DNA from: Ilumatobacteraceae bacterium
GTDB lineage: Bacteria > Actinomycetota > Acidimicrobiia > Acidimicrobiales > Ilumatobacteraceae
Assembly (NCBI GenBank): GCA_024644465.1
Contig: JAHEKY010000011.1
Coordinates: 5,105-48,071 of the forward strand
DNA length: 42,967 bases
Direction of reading: 5' to 3'
Positions 5,885 through 22,590 of this stretch are shown here, one piece after another. Made by a program: the position numbers and the translations under genes. Below the pieces are notes generated by a model. That model had not been told where the DNA came from, did no database searches, and was given only the letters and a program-made list of their open reading frames with translations. The number at the start of each line of letters is the position of its first letter. Positions within the stretch are counted from its first letter, which is position 1.

Positions 5885-5933
5885 GTTCTGCTGGCGTTGT
5901 GATGCGGAAGCCGCAACGATCGGTCCACAGAAC
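5885..5933. repeat. REP-like palindromic element, copy 1 (degenerate)
   Basis: A 49-bp element matching the copies at 7269-7317 and 7350-7398. It keeps the core gttgtgatgcgga..ccgcaacgat and the right arm ggtccacagaac. Its left outer arm has decayed (gttctgctggcg), so the outer stem is imperfect. The inner hairpin is tgcgg-aag-ccgca. It lies 22 bp downstream of the M24 gene's stop codon. Confidence 0.75.
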
Positions 5934-5955
5934 GGGGAGTGGTGGTGTGTCGGGC

Positions 5956-7221
5956 CTACCCGTCGAGCAACGCCTGCTCGAACGGGAACCGGCTGAGCAG
6001 CTCGGTGCCGGTCTCGGTGACGAGCACCTGCTGTTCGAGCTTGACGCCCTCCTTGCCGTCAGCAGCGCCGATGAAGCTCTCGACGCACAGCGTCATCCCG
6101 GGCTCGATCACGCCGTCGTACCCGGCAGCATCGAAGTCGGCGCGGTGGTAGAGGTACGGGTACTCCCCCGACATCCCGCAGCCGTGCGCGGACAGGTAAT
6201 AGCGGTGCGCGTGGAACCGCTCGGGGATGTCCCACGCCCGTTGGGCGTACTCTCGGAAGCCGAGACCGGGCTCGATGACGGCGACGTTGTGCGCGACCTG
6301 TTCGTGCGCCAACCGATACAGCTCCCGCTGCGCAGCCGACGGCTCGTCGGGGCCGACGTGGAACGTGCGCGAGAAGTCGGCGTAGTACCCGTGGCAGCCG
6401 ACGACGTCGGTGTCGAGCGCGACGAGTTCGTTCGGTTGGATCGTGCGCGCCGCCGTCTCCTGGAACCACGGGTTCGTCCGCGGGCCGGAGTTCAGCAGCC
6501 GCGTCTCGCAGTAGTCGCCATTGCCCGCGATCACGGCGCGATGGAGCACGGACCACAGTTCGTTCTCGGTGATGCCCGGCCGGATCGCGTCCCGCAGCTC
6601 GCCGACCGCGTGCTCGACCATTCGCAGCGACGCCCGGATGCACGCGATCTCGCCGTCCGACTTGATCGCCCGGGCCATCTCGACCGGTTCCTGCGCGTCG
6701 ACGACCCGGAGACCGGTCGCCGCGAGGGCGATCGCTGCGCCGGCGTTGAATCGCTCGACACCGACCACGGGATTCGGCTCCGCGACGAGCGCCCGGATCG
6801 TCGCCGCGGTGTGCGCGGCCCACTCGCGCTCACGTGCCTCGATGTCGCCCCCGGCAGCGACGAAGCTCGCGGTGACCGCGAGCCGGACCTCGTCGACCGT
6901 GTCGAGCCCGTCGGCGAGGTGCTCACAACCCGTGAACTCGTGGAGGATCGATCGGTCGGCAGTCAGTACGAGGTACCTCGACGGAGCGTTGCGGGACGTG
7001 AACACCTGCATGTTGCGGGCACCCGTTGCGTACCTGATGTTCACGGCGTCACTCAGCACGACCGCGGCGATGCCCCGCGCCGCCATCTCGCCGCGGACGC
7101 GCTGCAAGCGGTACCGACGGACGGCCGCGAGATCGATGCCGTCACTCTCGGGGGCCGCATCGAGCAGCCCCGTCCACGAGCGGTCGCCATGCCAGTCGAG
7201 CGTCGTCACGGACCACATCAT
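5956..7221 (-). CDS. M24-family metalloenzyme, DddP-like (DMSP lyase clade or aminopeptidase P-like)
   Basis: A 421-residue pita-bread metalloenzyme. Sequence strings typical of DddP, as I recall that family, are NIRYATGARNMQ (61-72) and ETRLLNSGPRTNPWFQE (239-255). Metal-ligand candidates are D270, D272, D282, H346, E381 and E396. Their spacing (2, 10, 64, 35, 15) equals that of the ligands reported for DddP (D295, D297, D307, H371, E406, E421). DddP converts dimethylsulfoniopropionate to DMS and acrylate. The position equivalent to the reported catalytic Asp377 is Gly352 here, in AHGCGMSGEYP, so lyase activity is doubtful. A peptidase or other C-X bond hydrolase is the alternative. It is cytoplasmic with no signal peptide. 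ATG codons at 7221 and 7218 are both possible. It stands alone on its strand between palindromic repeats, and no TANNNT box lies next to the start. Confidence 0.85.
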   Translation of the reverse strand: MMWSVTTLDWHGDRSWTGLLDAAPESDGIDLAAVRRYRLQRVRGEMAARGIAAVVLSDAVNIRYATGARNMQVFTSRNAPSRYLVLTADRSILHEFTGCEHLADGLDTVDEVRLAVTASFVAAGGDIEAREREWAAHTAATIRALVAEPNPVVGVERFNAGAAIALAATGLRVVDAQEPVEMARAIKSDGEIACIRASLRMVEHAVGELRDAIRPGITENELWSVLHRAVIAGNGDYCETRLLNSGPRTNPWFQETAARTIQPNELVALDTDVVGCHGYYADFSRTFHVGPDEPSAAQRELYRLAHEQVAHNVAVIEPGLGFREYAQRAWDIPERFHAHRYYLSAHGCGMSGEYPYLYHRADFDAAGYDGVIEPGMTLCVESFIGAADGKEGVKLEQQVLVTETGTELLSRFPFEQALLDG

Positions 7222-7254: not shown

Positions 7255-7409
7255 CCGGCGCCCCCGCCGTTCTGTGGACGTTGTGATGCGGATTCCGCAA
7301 CGATCCGTCCACAGAACCGAGGGGCGGTACCACGACCGGCGCCCCCGCCGTTCTGTGGACGTTGTGATGCGGATTCCGCAACGATCCGACCACGGACCCG
7401 AGGGGGCGG
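7255..7409. repeat. tandem pair of REP-like palindromic elements, period 81 bp (copies 2 and 3)
   Basis: Two direct repeats begin ccggcgcccccgccgttctg at 7255 and 7336. Each carries a 49-bp palindrome (7269-7317 and 7350-7398). In copy 2 the outer 12-bp arms gttctgtggacg and cgtccacagaac are perfectly complementary, and the inner hairpin is tgcgga-t-tccgca. Copy 3 keeps the inner hairpin but has three mismatches in the outer stem. The pair fills most of the 227-bp gap between the divergent M24 and gamma-glutamyltransferase-family genes. Confidence 0.85.
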
Positions 7410-14689: not shown

Positions 14690-15472
14690 TCACTGCATCG
14701 GGAGTTCGAAGGCGGCGATCTCGCGGAGCGCGGCGCAGAACGCTTCGACGGCGCCGTCGAACAACTCCCTGCCGCGCTCTGCCGTGGCGGTCGTCGGATC
14801 GCCGATGTGGCCGCCGGGCCCGAAATCGTTCGACAACCAGCCGAACGCGACGCTGCCTCCGAATCGCACGTGTTCGTTCGACGCGAGCGACGCCGGGACG
14901 TTGCGCGTCGCGCTCGCCATGTCGACGAGTTCAGGTGCGAGATGCAGCAGCAGCGACGTCTCGTCCGTGCCGGCGTGAATGCCCATCCCGAGTTCGTCGG
15001 CGGTCGACTCGCCACCTTGGTCCGGTGGCACGCTCGGGTGGGCCAGGAACGTCATCAGGCCGTGGGCGAGCCGCAGCTCGCGGTTGGCGGCGCCAACGAG
15101 CGCCGAGTTGCCGCCATGACCGTTCATGAACACGAGCTTGCGCGACCGGGTCCGTGCGACGCACCGGCCGATGTCGTCGAGCACGGCGAGCAGAGTCGTC
15201 GCCGACAGCCAGATCGTTCCCGCCGACCAGGCGTGCTCGTTGGACTTGGTATACGCGAGCGACGGCAACAGCCAGACGTCGAGTTCCTCGCCGACGCGAT
15301 CGACCGCGCCCTGCGCCACGCGTTCGGCGATCAACAGATCGGTGTTGAACGGCAGGTGCGGCCCATGCTGCTCGATCGCGCCGAGCGGTTGGACGAAGAT
15401 GCTGCTGTCGGTGATCAGGCGGTCGATGTCGGGGGCGCGGAGTTCGGCGAGAAGTCGGGAGTCGGATGCCAC
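14690..15472 (-). CDS. creatininase-family amidohydrolase (MftE/ArfB-like fold)
   Basis: A 260-residue member of the creatininase superfamily, whose enzymes hydrolyse cyclic amides, formamides or peptide tails with a dinuclear metal site. It has E34, H36 and D45 in GAIEQHGPHLPFNTD, the same numbering as creatininase. H119 is in NGHGGN and E171 in IHAGTDETSLLL. Genuine creatininase has NGHYEN (Glu122), so creatinine is not assured here. MftE-, ArfB- or general amidase-like roles are equally possible. The start is GTG with TAACGT 6 nt upstream. The gene is convergent with the N-heterocycle transporter operon, so a downstream hydrolytic step in the same pathway is plausible but unproven. Confidence 0.87.
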   Translation of the reverse strand: MASDSRLLAELRAPDIDRLITDSSIFVQPLGAIEQHGPHLPFNTDLLIAERVAQGAVDRVGEELDVWLLPSLAYTKSNEHAWSAGTIWLSATTLLAVLDDIGRCVARTRSRKLVFMNGHGGNSALVGAANRELRLAHGLMTFLAHPSVPPDQGGESTADELGMGIHAGTDETSLLLHLAPELVDMASATRNVPASLASNEHVRFGGSVAFGWLSNDFGPGGHIGDPTTATAERGRELFDGAVEAFCAALREIAAFELPMQ

Positions 15473-18899: not shown

Positions 18900-18924
18900 G
18901 GGGTGGGGTGGGGTGGGGTGGGGT
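18900..18924 (+). repeat. (GGGGT)5 tract, G-quadruplex candidate
   Basis: Five exact GGGGT units, preceded by GGGTT. The final T at 18924 is the last base of the minus-strand stop codon of the molybdenum hydroxylase gene, so that mRNA would carry ACCCC repeats immediately after its stop. G-runs of four with 1-nt loops are expected to fold as a quadruplex on the plus strand. Confidence 0.85.
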
Positions 18925-21236
18925 CAGAGGCAGATGTCGCCGGGGCGGACCGGCACTCGGTCGAGCGGGCGGTCGATGCCGGCCTGCTGCAGCGCGTCGC
19001 GGATGGCGGCGACGACCGCGGGGGTCGACGAGATGCACGGCGGCTCGCCCACGCCCTTCGCGCCGAGCGGGGCGTACGGGTCAGGCTGTTCGATCAGCGT
19101 CGCGACGACCGGCGGCATGTCGAGGAACGTCGGCAGCAGGTAGTCGGTGAAGTTGCCGTTGCGGATCACGCCGTCGATCTGAATGATCTCCTCCATCACC
19201 GCGAGGCCGAGGCCCTGGGCGATGCCCCCTTCGATCTGGCCGATCACCGACAGCGGGTTCAACGCCCTCCCGACGTCCTGCGCCGTCGCGATCTGGACGA
19301 CCTTGACGAGGCCCAGTTCGGGATCGACGTCGACGACGGCGCGGTGGGCGACGAACGCGAACGCAGTGTGCGGGCTGCCCTGGCCGTTCTCGTCGAGCTC
19401 GGTTGTCGGTGCGTGGTGGTACTCGGCGGTCTCGTCGAAGGTGGCTCCGGCGCACGCCTCGGCGACGTCGCCGCGCCACCCGCTGACACTGTCGACGATG
19501 TCGGTGCCGTCGATCGTCAGGGCGGCCGGATCGAAGCCGTTCTCCTCGGCGACGTGGTCGAAGATCTTCGACCGGACAGCGAGACACGCTGCGTTGACCG
19601 CGCCACCGCTCATCCAGGTCTGCCTCGACGCCGAAGTGGAGCCGGACGAACCGATCTGGGTGTCGATCCGGTCGAGGCGCACGTCGTCGACGCCGAGCAC
19701 CGTGCGGGCGATCTGCGGGGCGAGTGTGACGAACCCCTGGCCGACCTCGGCCGTCGCGAACTTGAGCGTCACGACGCCGTCCGTGAAGCGGCAGCGGGCA
19801 GTCGAATAGTCGTCGAACGCCTCGGAGTACATCAGGTTCTTGATCGACACGCCCCAGCCGATGCCCCGCACGATGTCGCCGGCGTCGGCGGTCCGCCCGG
19901 CACCACCCGGCAGCTTCATCACGTCGGCGGACCCGTCGGGCATCGGTGCGCCGCCGACGGGCTCGTCCGGCAGCGGCAGCGCCGCCGTCTCGCGGATGCA
20001 TTCCTCGACCGGCGCAACGTTGAGCACCGGTTGCCCGGTGATCAACGTGTCGCCGGTACGCATCGCGTTCAGGACCCGGATGTCGACCGGATCGATGCCA
20101 CATGCGGCGGCGAGCTTGTCCATCTGCGACTCGTAGGCGAAGCACGCCTGCACGGCACCGAAGCCGCGCATCGCCCCGCACGGCAGGTGGTTGGTCCGCA
20201 CCGCCCAGCCGTCGACGACCGCGTTCGGGCAGCGGTACGGGCCCTGGGCGAGCGTGATCGCGTTGACGAGCACGGCCGACGACGTCGACGCGTACGCCCC
20301 GCCGTCGAGCACCGTCTTCGACTCGATCTTGACGATCTCGCCATCGCTCGTGGCGTGATGGCGCATCCAGATCGTCGCCGGATGACGGTGAACGTGGCCG
20401 ATGAAGCTCTCCGCCCGGTTGTACGCCATCCGTACCGGCCGACCCAGCCGCAACGCGAGCAGGCAGGTGTGCACCTGGAGGCTGATGTCCTCGCGGGCGC
20501 CGAAGGCCCCCCCGACACCGCCGAGCACGAGGCGGACGGCGTCCTCCGGCAGCCCGAGGCAGGCGGCGATCTGCGTGCGGTCCTCGTGGAGCCACTGTGT
20601 CGCGATGTGCAACTCGACGCCCTTCGCTCCCGGGTCGGGGATCGCCAGCGCCGCTTCGAGGCCGAGGAACGCCTGGTCCTGCATGCCGATCTCGTACGTC
20701 CCCTCGACGACGACGGCACCGGTGACGTCGGGGTCACCGTGGATGATCCGTTGGTGACGGATCACGTTGCCGTCCGGATGGATCGGTGGGTGGTCGCCGG
20801 CGATCGCCGCCTCCGCGTCGAGCAGTGGGTCGAGCACCTCGTACTCGACGGCGAGCGCCGCCAGCGCACGCCGGCAGGTCTCGGGGTGGTCGGCGGCGAC
20901 GGCGGCGACCGGTTCGCCGACGTACCGGACGACGTCGCTCGCGAACACGGGCTGGTCCTGGCTGATCAGGCCGTAGTTCATCTGCCCGGGTACGTCGTCG
21001 GCCGTGATCACCGCATGGACGCCGTCGATCTGCCAGGCCCCGGCAGGGTCGATCGCGACGATCCGAGCGTGCGGGTGCGGCGATCGCAGCGTCGCGCCCC
21101 ACAGGCAGCCGTCGGCGGAGATGTCCGACGAGAACTCGAACGTGCCCTGCACCTTCTCGATGCCGTCCGGCCGGGGCGGCGACGTGCCGAGCGCGCCGTG
21201 CCGGGCGATGTCGGCCGGTCGCTCGATGATGCTCAT
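18924..21236 (-). CDS. xanthine dehydrogenase-family molybdopterin-binding subunit (PucD/XdhA-like)
   Basis: A 770-residue molybdenum hydroxylase large subunit. The N-terminal Ald_Xan_dh_C half has GATLRSPHPHARI. Molybdopterin-domain motifs include DQAFLGLEAALAIP (Glu near 198), GGVGGAFGARED, LPCGAMRGFGAVQACFAYES, AEVGQGF, and the catalytic GAKGVGEPP with Glu731. The VAYRCSFR loop of CO dehydrogenases is absent, so this is a purine- or heterocycle-type hydroxylase. It assembles with the two small-subunit genes upstream. Its ATG overlaps the preceding stop (ATGA), which indicates translational coupling. The GGGGT tract begins at its stop. No XdhC maturation gene is in the window. Confidence 0.92.
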   Translation of the reverse strand: MSIIERPADIARHGALGTSPPRPDGIEKVQGTFEFSSDISADGCLWGATLRSPHPHARIVAIDPAGAWQIDGVHAVITADDVPGQMNYGLISQDQPVFASDVVRYVGEPVAAVAADHPETCRRALAALAVEYEVLDPLLDAEAAIAGDHPPIHPDGNVIRHQRIIHGDPDVTGAVVVEGTYEIGMQDQAFLGLEAALAIPDPGAKGVELHIATQWLHEDRTQIAACLGLPEDAVRLVLGGVGGAFGAREDISLQVHTCLLALRLGRPVRMAYNRAESFIGHVHRHPATIWMRHHATSDGEIVKIESKTVLDGGAYASTSSAVLVNAITLAQGPYRCPNAVVDGWAVRTNHLPCGAMRGFGAVQACFAYESQMDKLAAACGIDPVDIRVLNAMRTGDTLITGQPVLNVAPVEECIRETAALPLPDEPVGGAPMPDGSADVMKLPGGAGRTADAGDIVRGIGWGVSIKNLMYSEAFDDYSTARCRFTDGVVTLKFATAEVGQGFVTLAPQIARTVLGVDDVRLDRIDTQIGSSGSTSASRQTWMSGGAVNAACLAVRSKIFDHVAEENGFDPAALTIDGTDIVDSVSGWRGDVAEACAGATFDETAEYHHAPTTELDENGQGSPHTAFAFVAHRAVVDVDPELGLVKVVQIATAQDVGRALNPLSVIGQIEGGIAQGLGLAVMEEIIQIDGVIRNGNFTDYLLPTFLDMPPVVATLIEQPDPYAPLGAKGVGEPPCISSTPAVVAAIRDALQQAGIDRPLDRVPVRPGDICL

Positions 21237-21721
21237 GACGACAGCTCCACGCGGGCGACGGCCACCCGCTGCACTGCGTCGATGATCCGTCCGTAGCCGG
21301 TGCAGCGACAGACGTTGCCGGCCAGTTCCTCACGGATCTCGGTGTCGGACGGCACCGGTGTCCGGTCGAGGAGGTCGTGCACTGCCATGATCAGCCCGGG
21401 CGTGCAGAACCCGCACTGCACGGCGCCGGCATCGACGAACGCTTGTTGGACGTCGCTCGGTGCGTCCGGCGGCGCGATGCCCTCGACGGTCACGATCTGC
21501 TGCCCGACCGCGCTCGCCGCCATCACGAGGCAGCTGCACACGAGGTCGCCGTCGACGACGACGCTGCACGAGCCACACTCCCCCTGCTCGCACGCGCCCT
21601 TCGCGCCGACGAGACCGAGCCGGTCGCGCAGCACGTCGAGCAGGCTCTCGCCGAGCCAGGAATCGGTGACGTCGCGCCGCTCACCGTTGACGTGCAACGA
21701 GAAGATCTCCATCTCGCTCAT
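21233..21721 (-). CDS. xanthine dehydrogenase-type [2Fe-2S] subunit
   Basis: A 162-residue iron-sulfur subunit. The plant-ferredoxin cluster is GACEQGECGSCSVVVDG with the fourth Cys in LVCSCLV, and the C-terminal helical-domain cluster is CGFCTPG with NVCRCTGYGRI. These carry electrons from the Mo centre to FAD. The length is normal. The start at 21721 is set by the ATGA overlap with the upstream FAD subunit, and the longer frame to 21901 has no domain content. The gene overlaps the molybdopterin subunit by ATGA at its end. Confidence 0.94.
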   Translation of the reverse strand: MSEMEIFSLHVNGERRDVTDSWLGESLLDVLRDRLGLVGAKGACEQGECGSCSVVVDGDLVCSCLVMAASAVGQQIVTVEGIAPPDAPSDVQQAFVDAGAVQCGFCTPGLIMAVHDLLDRTPVPSDTEIREELAGNVCRCTGYGRIIDAVQRVAVARVELSS

Positions 21722-22590
21722 CTCGTCGCGCCCGCAGGGTCGACCGTGAGCGCCCGCTGCGCGAGCCGGCGGGCGAGGACGCCGACGGCATGACGCCGGT
21801 ACTCCGCCGACGACCGGTGGTCGGTGATCGGACGGCTCGCGGCCGACACCAGCGTGGCGAAGCGGGCGAGATCCGGGGCGGCGACGGCCATCGACGCCCA
21901 ATCGATGCGTTCGGAGAGGTCAGCCTCGGCCTCCGGGCAACGCAGGATCGTCGGACCGACCGAACCGAGCGCGACCCGCACGGTGCGGGCCGCCCGATCC
22001 AGGACGACGCACGCGCTGGCGATCGCGATCACCATCGCGTTGCGGACGCCGACCTTCGCGTAACCCTGCCACCCGTCGACGACCGGCAGCGTCACCTCGG
22101 TGATCAGCTCTCCCGGTTCGATCGCGGTCCGCTTGACGCCGACCATGAAGTCGAGCACCGGCAGCGATCGTGTGCCGCGCACTGATGCGAGCGTGACGGT
22201 CGCGTCGAGCGCGGCGAGCACCGGGAGGCCGTCGCCGGCCGGTGAGCAGGTGCCGAGGTTGCCGCCGAGCGTGCCGGCATTGCGGATCTGCGGCGAACCG
22301 ACCGTGCGCGATGCCTCGGCGAGCGCCGGGATCAGCGCCGCGACCGACGGATCCATCAACTCGGTGTAGGTGACACACGCACCGATCGTGACGGTGCCCG
22401 AGGCGGGGTCGTGTCGCCACGACCGCAGGTCGGGGATCCGGTTGACGGCCAGCACCGGGCCGGCCGGCCGGCGGTGGCCGTCGTTGATCTCGACCATGGC
22501 ATCGGTGCCGCCGGCGAGCAGGGTGGCCTCGCCGTGTTCGGCGAGCATGGATGTCGCCGCCTCGATCGTGGTCGGGATCAGTACGGGCAT
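21718..22590 (-). CDS. xanthine dehydrogenase-type FAD-binding subunit (CoxM/PucC-like)
   Basis: A 290-residue FAD subunit of the three-part molybdenum hydroxylase. FAD-pyrophosphate motifs are TLLAGGTDAMVEI (about 28-40) and IRNAGTLGGNLGTCSPAGDGLPVLAALDA (about 101-129), followed by the CO_deh_flav_C domain. It is the first gene of the operon FAD - FeS - Mo, with ATGA overlaps at both junctions. TACAGT lies 7 nt before its ATG. The subunit order and sizes match the B. subtilis Puc type rather than fused eukaryotic XDH. Confidence 0.92.
   Translation of the reverse strand: MPVLIPTTIEAATSMLAEHGEATLLAGGTDAMVEINDGHRRPAGPVLAVNRIPDLRSWRHDPASGTVTIGACVTYTELMDPSVAALIPALAEASRTVGSPQIRNAGTLGGNLGTCSPAGDGLPVLAALDATVTLASVRGTRSLPVLDFMVGVKRTAIEPGELITEVTLPVVDGWQGYAKVGVRNAMVIAIASACVVLDRAARTVRVALGSVGPTILRCPEAEADLSERIDWASMAVAAPDLARFATLVSAASRPITDHRSSAEYRRHAVGVLARRLAQRALTVDPAGATR

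Follow-up and report, generated by a model that had tools for sequence, protein, structure and literature searches.

DddP ranks among the commonest DMSP lyase genes of the sea, and metagenome surveys count it as a matter of routine. In this enzyme the sulfur of DMSP is bound by a tryptophan and a tyrosine, and the alpha proton is taken by an aspartate (PMC5395565). The roles of the tryptophan and the tyrosine are those given in that paper, and the number Trp95 used below comes from our alignment to PDB structures. Among the other described M24 enzymes, Xaa-Pro dipeptidase and aminopeptidase P (M24B) share the fold and the dinuclear-metal ligand set of the protein reported here, and the ectoine hydrolase DoeA and creatinase share its pita-bread fold; the latter two act on small zwitterions, in osmolyte or methylamine catabolism. 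Our literature search returned no description of a DddP-like enzyme with Gly at position 377, nor of a betaine operon that includes an M24 gene.

The window, i.e. the whole stretch of 42,967 nucleotides that was analysed, carries on its minus strand an ORF of 421 codons (7221 to 5956), encoding a 421-residue M24 protein with the Pfam domains Peptidase_M24 and Creatinase_N. Most orthologs have an N-terminus of the form M..LDWH, which led us to consider that the GTG at 7209-7207, and not the ATG at 7221, may be the true start. The features are listed below in window coordinates; codons of active-site residues were assigned by alignment.

5956-7221, minus strand: M24 gene (P0002), 421 aa, DddP sister family, Phe95/Gly377 type (from ORF, alignment, tree and fold)
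7207-7209, minus strand: possible alternative GTG start at codon 5, fitting the M..LDWH start of orthologs (from the sequence and ortholog N-termini)
7000-7002, minus strand: Phe74 codon, DddP Trp95 site (sulfonium-binding), Phe in 82/82 clade members
6511-6513, minus strand: Tyr237 codon, DddP Trp262 site, Tyr in 82/82 clade members
6406-6414, minus strand: D270, T271 and D272 codons, DxD metal ligands (DddP D295, D297)
6376-6378, minus strand: D282 codon, metal ligand (DddP D307)
6199-6201, minus strand: Tyr341 codon, DddP Y366, invariant
6184-6186, minus strand: H346 codon, metal ligand (DddP H371)
6166-6168, minus strand: Gly352 codon, DddP catalytic Asp377 site, Gly in 82/82 clade members
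6163-6165, minus strand: Glu353 codon, DddP E378, site of the M24 peptidase catalytic His, invariant
6079-6081, minus strand: E381 codon, metal ligand (DddP E406)
6034-6036, minus strand: E396 codon, metal ligand (DddP E421)
5885-5934, 7269-7317 and 7350-7398: copies of a palindromic repeat

In a phmmer search, the DddP structure 4b28 was the top match (E = 2.5e-68), with 4rzy, 4s00 and 4s01 at ~1e-65, and prolidases came next, far behind (E = 2.3e-16). As judged from these sequence matches, the resemblance to DddP is a matter of homology and not of chance. Identity to DddP is 33%; the strings ETRLLNSGPRTNPWFQE and NIRYAT..NMQ, which the preliminary description had matched to DddP, are indeed common to both proteins in the alignment, as is the RTNPWFQE motif. 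With the NCBIfam DddP model NF043017 the score was 300.6 bits (E = 1.7e-89), which is half of the 600-bit cut-off and hence below it. Other M24 models scored far under their own cut-offs: 50 bits for the PepQ and aminopeptidase models (cut-offs 630 and 393, prolidase models requiring ~390-630), and 57 and 44 bits for the DoeA models NF038259 and TIGR02993 (cut-offs 575 and 613). In the AlphaFold model (pLDDT 94, pTM 0.91), the predicted fold is the M24B pita-bread fold, of DddP type: among solved structures the four DddP entries lie closest (TM 0.89, rmsd 1.7-1.8 A), and DoeA, prolidases and creatinase follow at TM ~0.7 (0.70-0.73 for DoeA and creatinase). With phmmer and fold putting DddP nearest, and the tree (see below) placing the protein in the DddP superfamily, the initial reading as a DddP-like M24 enzyme is borne out.

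The active site was compared to RlDddP (PDB 4rzy/4s00/4s01) and RdDddP (4b28). Residues D270, D272, D282, H346, E381 and E396 align with DddP D295, D297, D307, H371, E406 and E421, and Gly352 falls on the catalytic Asp377. The alignment thus confirms the six metal ligands, their spacing (2/10/64/35/15) and the glycine, all first noticed from the sequence alone. Two further differences had escaped that first inspection, Phe74 at DddP Trp95 and Tyr237 at DddP Trp262, while Tyr341 (= Y366) and Glu353 (= E378) are retained. The pattern was followed in 82 clade members, namely the best 80 loci of a genome scan, one relative of the same order (65% identity) and the window protein. All 82 keep the six ligands, including the DddP-type D297, with the Tyr366 and Glu378 equivalents, and all 82 carry Phe, Tyr and Gly in place of Trp95, Trp262 and Asp377, respectively. 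Asp88, His98, Phe142 and Glu261 of DddP are moreover fixed or nearly fixed as Gly, Arg, Val and Asp in the Gly clade (D88G, H98R, F142V, E261D). Given the roles of the tryptophan, tyrosine and aspartate (PMC5395565), this means that two of the three DddP residues are replaced in the clade, and not one. Of the sulfonium-binding aromatics, the Tyr366 equivalent is kept and Trp95 is not (Phe74).

The best 80 loci of the scan are 65-89% identical at full length, and the 81 relatives together span 64-89%. Their hosts belong to Acidimicrobiia, Alpha-, Beta- and Gammaproteobacteria, with one Sediminispirochaeta MAG; several are soil or plant-associated bacteria. Most members found are proteobacterial, and four roseobacter genomes hold both a true DddP (over the NCBIfam cut-off) and a Gly-clade protein. 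The suggestion of an actinobacterial branch does not survive this spread, which is pan-bacterial. We conclude that the Gly form is a widespread and well delimited sister family of DddP. A plasmid search for close annotated copies yielded only relatives below 60% identity. Oceanimonas doudoroffii DddP2 was considered as a characterised member of the clade and rejected, a judgement made from the genomes of its family: the clade is represented there by Zobellella maritima alone, and the remaining genomes that hold a DddP-like gene encode Trp95/Asp377 proteins, in one case Val377.

A tree was built from 113 DddP-superfamily and outgroup M24 proteins, and repeated with two outgroup rows. The window protein was placed in a clade of its own (99% support) within the DddP superfamily, adjoining other Gly377 clades, and not among prolidases far from DddP; canonical DddP formed a separate set. 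Forcing the Gly clade together with canonical DddP was rejected (AU p = 0.00015, lnL 152 worse), and a constraint uniting all Asp377 proteins was not (p = 0.48). Among the superfamily rows Asp377 is always paired with Trp262, and Gly377 never is; the two residues can be a single gain. When the tree is rooted on other M24 proteins, the Gly377 lineages are basal, with moderate support at the relevant forks (SH-aLRT 85-94) and long outgroup branches. Asp377 is therefore likelier to have been gained in the DddP line than lost here, and under this moderately supported root Gly is probably the older state. The idea that Gly had replaced Asp probably has the change the wrong way round.

The M24 gene of the window is solitary, with a small hypothetical gene on one side and a divergent GGT-like gene on the other; neither there nor in the other Acidimicrobiia inspected was a betaine neighbour found. 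The genes around it (GGT-like, LLM oxidoreductase, cytosine-deaminase-like amidohydrolase, NitT-type ABC genes, creatininase-like) were discarded as clues to function, their order being common only to the nearest relative, L001, among the relatives inspected.

A divergently oriented LysR gene is the immediate neighbour in 34-35 of the 80 loci. A BCCT carrier lies directly downstream on the same strand in Zobellella, Halomonas, two Amphritea and Marinomonas. In Caballeronia/Paraburkholderia (Burkholderiales), Halomonas/Billgrantia and Sediminispirochaeta a gene within 500 bp encodes an OpuAC betaine-binding protein, accompanied by choline dehydrogenase in five Burkholderiales, and complete OpuAC-permease-ATPase sets adjoin the gene in Maritimibacter and Loktanella. 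Genes of MttB-family methyltransferases are also among the same-strand neighbours within 500 bp, and three Rhizobiaceae-like loci have the order MttB - M24 - DAO/FAO_M/GCV_T (dimethylglycine/sarcosine-dehydrogenase type). Altogether, a betaine transporter, an MttB-type or a dimethylglycine-dehydrogenase-like gene lies within 500 bp on the same strand in 22 of the 80 loci, compared to only 3 loci with these families elsewhere in ~0.9 Mb of flanks, a count made with representatives selected for being adjacent somewhere; some 58 relatives have only LysR or nothing telling alongside. Since the scores of the transporter proteins against glycine-betaine families stay under the equivalog cut-offs, these proteins indicate a class of compounds and not its name.

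More distant Gly377 relatives, in S. meliloti pSymA, Caballeronia and Billgrantia, share with the window family the glycine, the metal site and the linkage to betaine ABC genes. They differ by their identity (~44-54%), a Tyr at 95, a Phe or Tyr at 262 and separate subclades, and, where annotated, are called Xaa-Pro peptidase family. The S. meliloti pSymA locus has MttB and DAO/GCV_T genes as well. The whole pSymA cluster (L169, 1515-14738) comprises DAO/GCV_T, MttB, a GlxA-type regulator, the Gly377 M24 gene, an isochorismatase-like gene and betaine ABC genes, together with mandelate-racemase-like and Ldh-like genes, and is a probable onium-compound pathway.

We propose, with a probability of about 0.45, that the protein is a dinuclear-metal hydrolase acting on a betaine-like zwitterion that the cell imports, that it feeds choline/glycine-betaine catabolism, and that it is not a DMSP lyase. 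A betaine-like substrate is preferred over DMS production because two of the three key residues are changed, and because relatives have betaine (or DMSP-like) uptake genes as neighbours. By analogy with DddP, the enzyme would be a homodimer. It would handle inside the cell a small imported zwitterion of betaine type, with a positive onium group; neighbour genes and the kept aromatic residues make an onium zwitterion the most likely substrate. The two metals would hold its carboxylate and activate water, and Phe74, Tyr237 and Tyr341 would form an aromatic cage around the cation, with a geometry deduced from the alignment and not from model coordinates. Glu353 could then act as acid/base while the metal-bound water hydrolyses the substrate. 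Hydrolysis is more likely than beta-elimination, since the proton-abstracting Asp of DddP is absent. The product would enter choline, glycine betaine or dimethylglycine catabolism, and the acidimicrobial copy, whose own neighbours are not betaine genes, would share the function of the family. For this family, no onium compound with an ester, amide or ring to be hydrolysed is known as a substrate. The preliminary description had offered two broad possibilities, a DMSP lyase with another base, or an activity on a different zwitterion or peptide. In the second of these, the zwitterion part is favoured by the gene neighbourhoods, and the peptidase part is weakened by Glu353, which stands where peptidases have their catalytic His.

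A DMSP (or DMSOP) lyase using another general base, e.g. Tyr341 for Asp377, is the less likely half of that proposal, and we consider it unlikely. A tyrosine is the base in the zinc-cupin DMSP lyases DddQ and DddY, DMSP is importable by BCCT carriers, and the window protein has the fold and the metal site of DddP with an invariant Tyr366 equivalent that could serve as the base. A passage of PMC4108388 likewise cites a tyrosine as base in another DMSP lyase family. In addition, in two Rhodobacterales relatives, Loktanella and Maritimibacter, the gene adjoins one for an ABC binding protein that shares 56% and 36% identity, respectively, with RnDmpX, a DMSP-specific binding protein (PMC10030565), and keeps most pocket residues. 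We do not take these residues as proof that DMSP is the substrate, since they are conserved in other ProX-type proteins as well, so that the likeness to DmpX does not decide between DMSP and betaine. Against a DMSP lyase, Trp95, Trp262 and Asp377 are all replaced, invariantly, whereas every characterised DddP in PMC4108388 keeps the catalytic pair, even that of Fusarium (32% to RdDddP). The profile score stops at half of the DddP cut-off, roseobacters hold a true DddP as well, neighbours are mostly glycine-betaine/choline genes, several hosts live in soil, and no acrylate-utilisation genes were recognised beside the M24 gene.

An M24B dipeptidase or prolidase-type peptidase, as annotation pipelines name it (Xaa-Pro peptidase family protein, an annotation carried by plasmid relatives), ranks next and is doubtful as well. 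The M24 and Creatinase_N domains, the five M24 metal ligands and the pita-bread fold are those of a peptidase. However, the invariant Glu353 occupies the place of the peptidase catalytic His, which lies seven positions after the metal His, the extra ligand D272 is Gly in two prolidase-like outgroup rows, and the prolidase models remain at 50 bits. The gene neighbourhoods differ too, the linkage being to onium transport and not to peptide transport.

Still lower we place an elimination lyase acting on a nitrogen analogue of DMSP or a beta-substituted betaine, releasing e.g. trimethylamine from beta-alanine betaine or carnitine-like compounds. The DddP-like fold and the adjoining MttB-family genes would suit it, but without the proton-abstracting Asp an elimination at C-alpha is less plausible, trimethylamine oxidation genes were not recognised in the neighbourhoods inspected, and the neighbouring DAO/GCV_T protein suggests substrates of the dimethylglycine/sarcosine type. 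Finally, a ring or guanidino-zwitterion hydrolase like DoeA or creatinase is improbable: the fold is in common and sarcosine-type products would suit the sarcosine/dimethylglycine dehydrogenase-like partner, but identity is ~20% with different active sites, the DoeA models stay far under their cut-offs, no ectoine downstream genes were seen in the neighbourhoods inspected, and creatinase uses no metals and lacks the metal ligands.

Coming back to the hydrolysis of an imported betaine-like compound, we suggest, more tentatively, that this unrecognised and widespread family degrades a yet-unnamed betaine-type compound, and that DddP emerged from a betaine-linked superfamily when a site already suited to metal and cation acquired Trp262 and Asp377. 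If this is true, the "missing" Asp is the ancestral state, and the substrate marks a step that has been missed in the cycling of onium compounds, both in soils and in the sea. Should another betaine be the substrate, the enzyme would account for a missing step in how soil and marine bacteria turn over choline and glycine betaine, and provide a concrete model of how a DMSP lyase evolves from a betaine enzyme. There is also a consequence for surveys, one of which used an E-value cut-off of 1e-70 for DddP (PMC5395565). As the sister family matches the DddP profile at ~1e-89, and RlDddP at ~1e-74 (in a small database), an E-value cut-off alone might count it as DddP; residues 95, 262 and 377 separate the two.

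No BCCT gene is present in the host genome (assembly 83% complete), which has a single OpuAC gene, two genes for MttB and two further genes of the DddP superfamily. The first of these, on contig C21 (L190:10152-11534, plus strand; = G000:C21, also L082), keeps Trp95, Trp262, Tyr366 and Asp377. Its product is 44% identical to RlDddP and scores 445 bits against the 600-bit cut-off, and its companions are MttB, a DAO/GCV_T protein and a GbcA-like Rieske oxygenase. DMS-producing Actinobacteria without any known ddd gene are on record (PMC6309047), which makes this gene a candidate. The second, on contig C67 (L186:6224-7408, plus strand; = G000:C67, also L083), has Asp377 and Trp262 but Phe95, and altered NIRYAT and NMQ motifs.

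Two more observations concern the window itself. The M24 gene is flanked on both sides by a palindromic interspersed repeat of ~48 bp, GTTCTGTGGACG...CGTCCACAGAAC; its 22-base core is present in 12 copies in the host genome (at most two mismatches), and the reversed control in none. Further along, a creatininase-family protein is encoded at 14690-15472, nearest to mycofactocin MftE but below the cut-off (138 vs 172 bits), and a molybdenum hydroxylase gene set occupies 18924-22590, the large subunit of which passes the cut-off for xanthine dehydrogenase subunit D (pucD), with 799 vs 784 bits.
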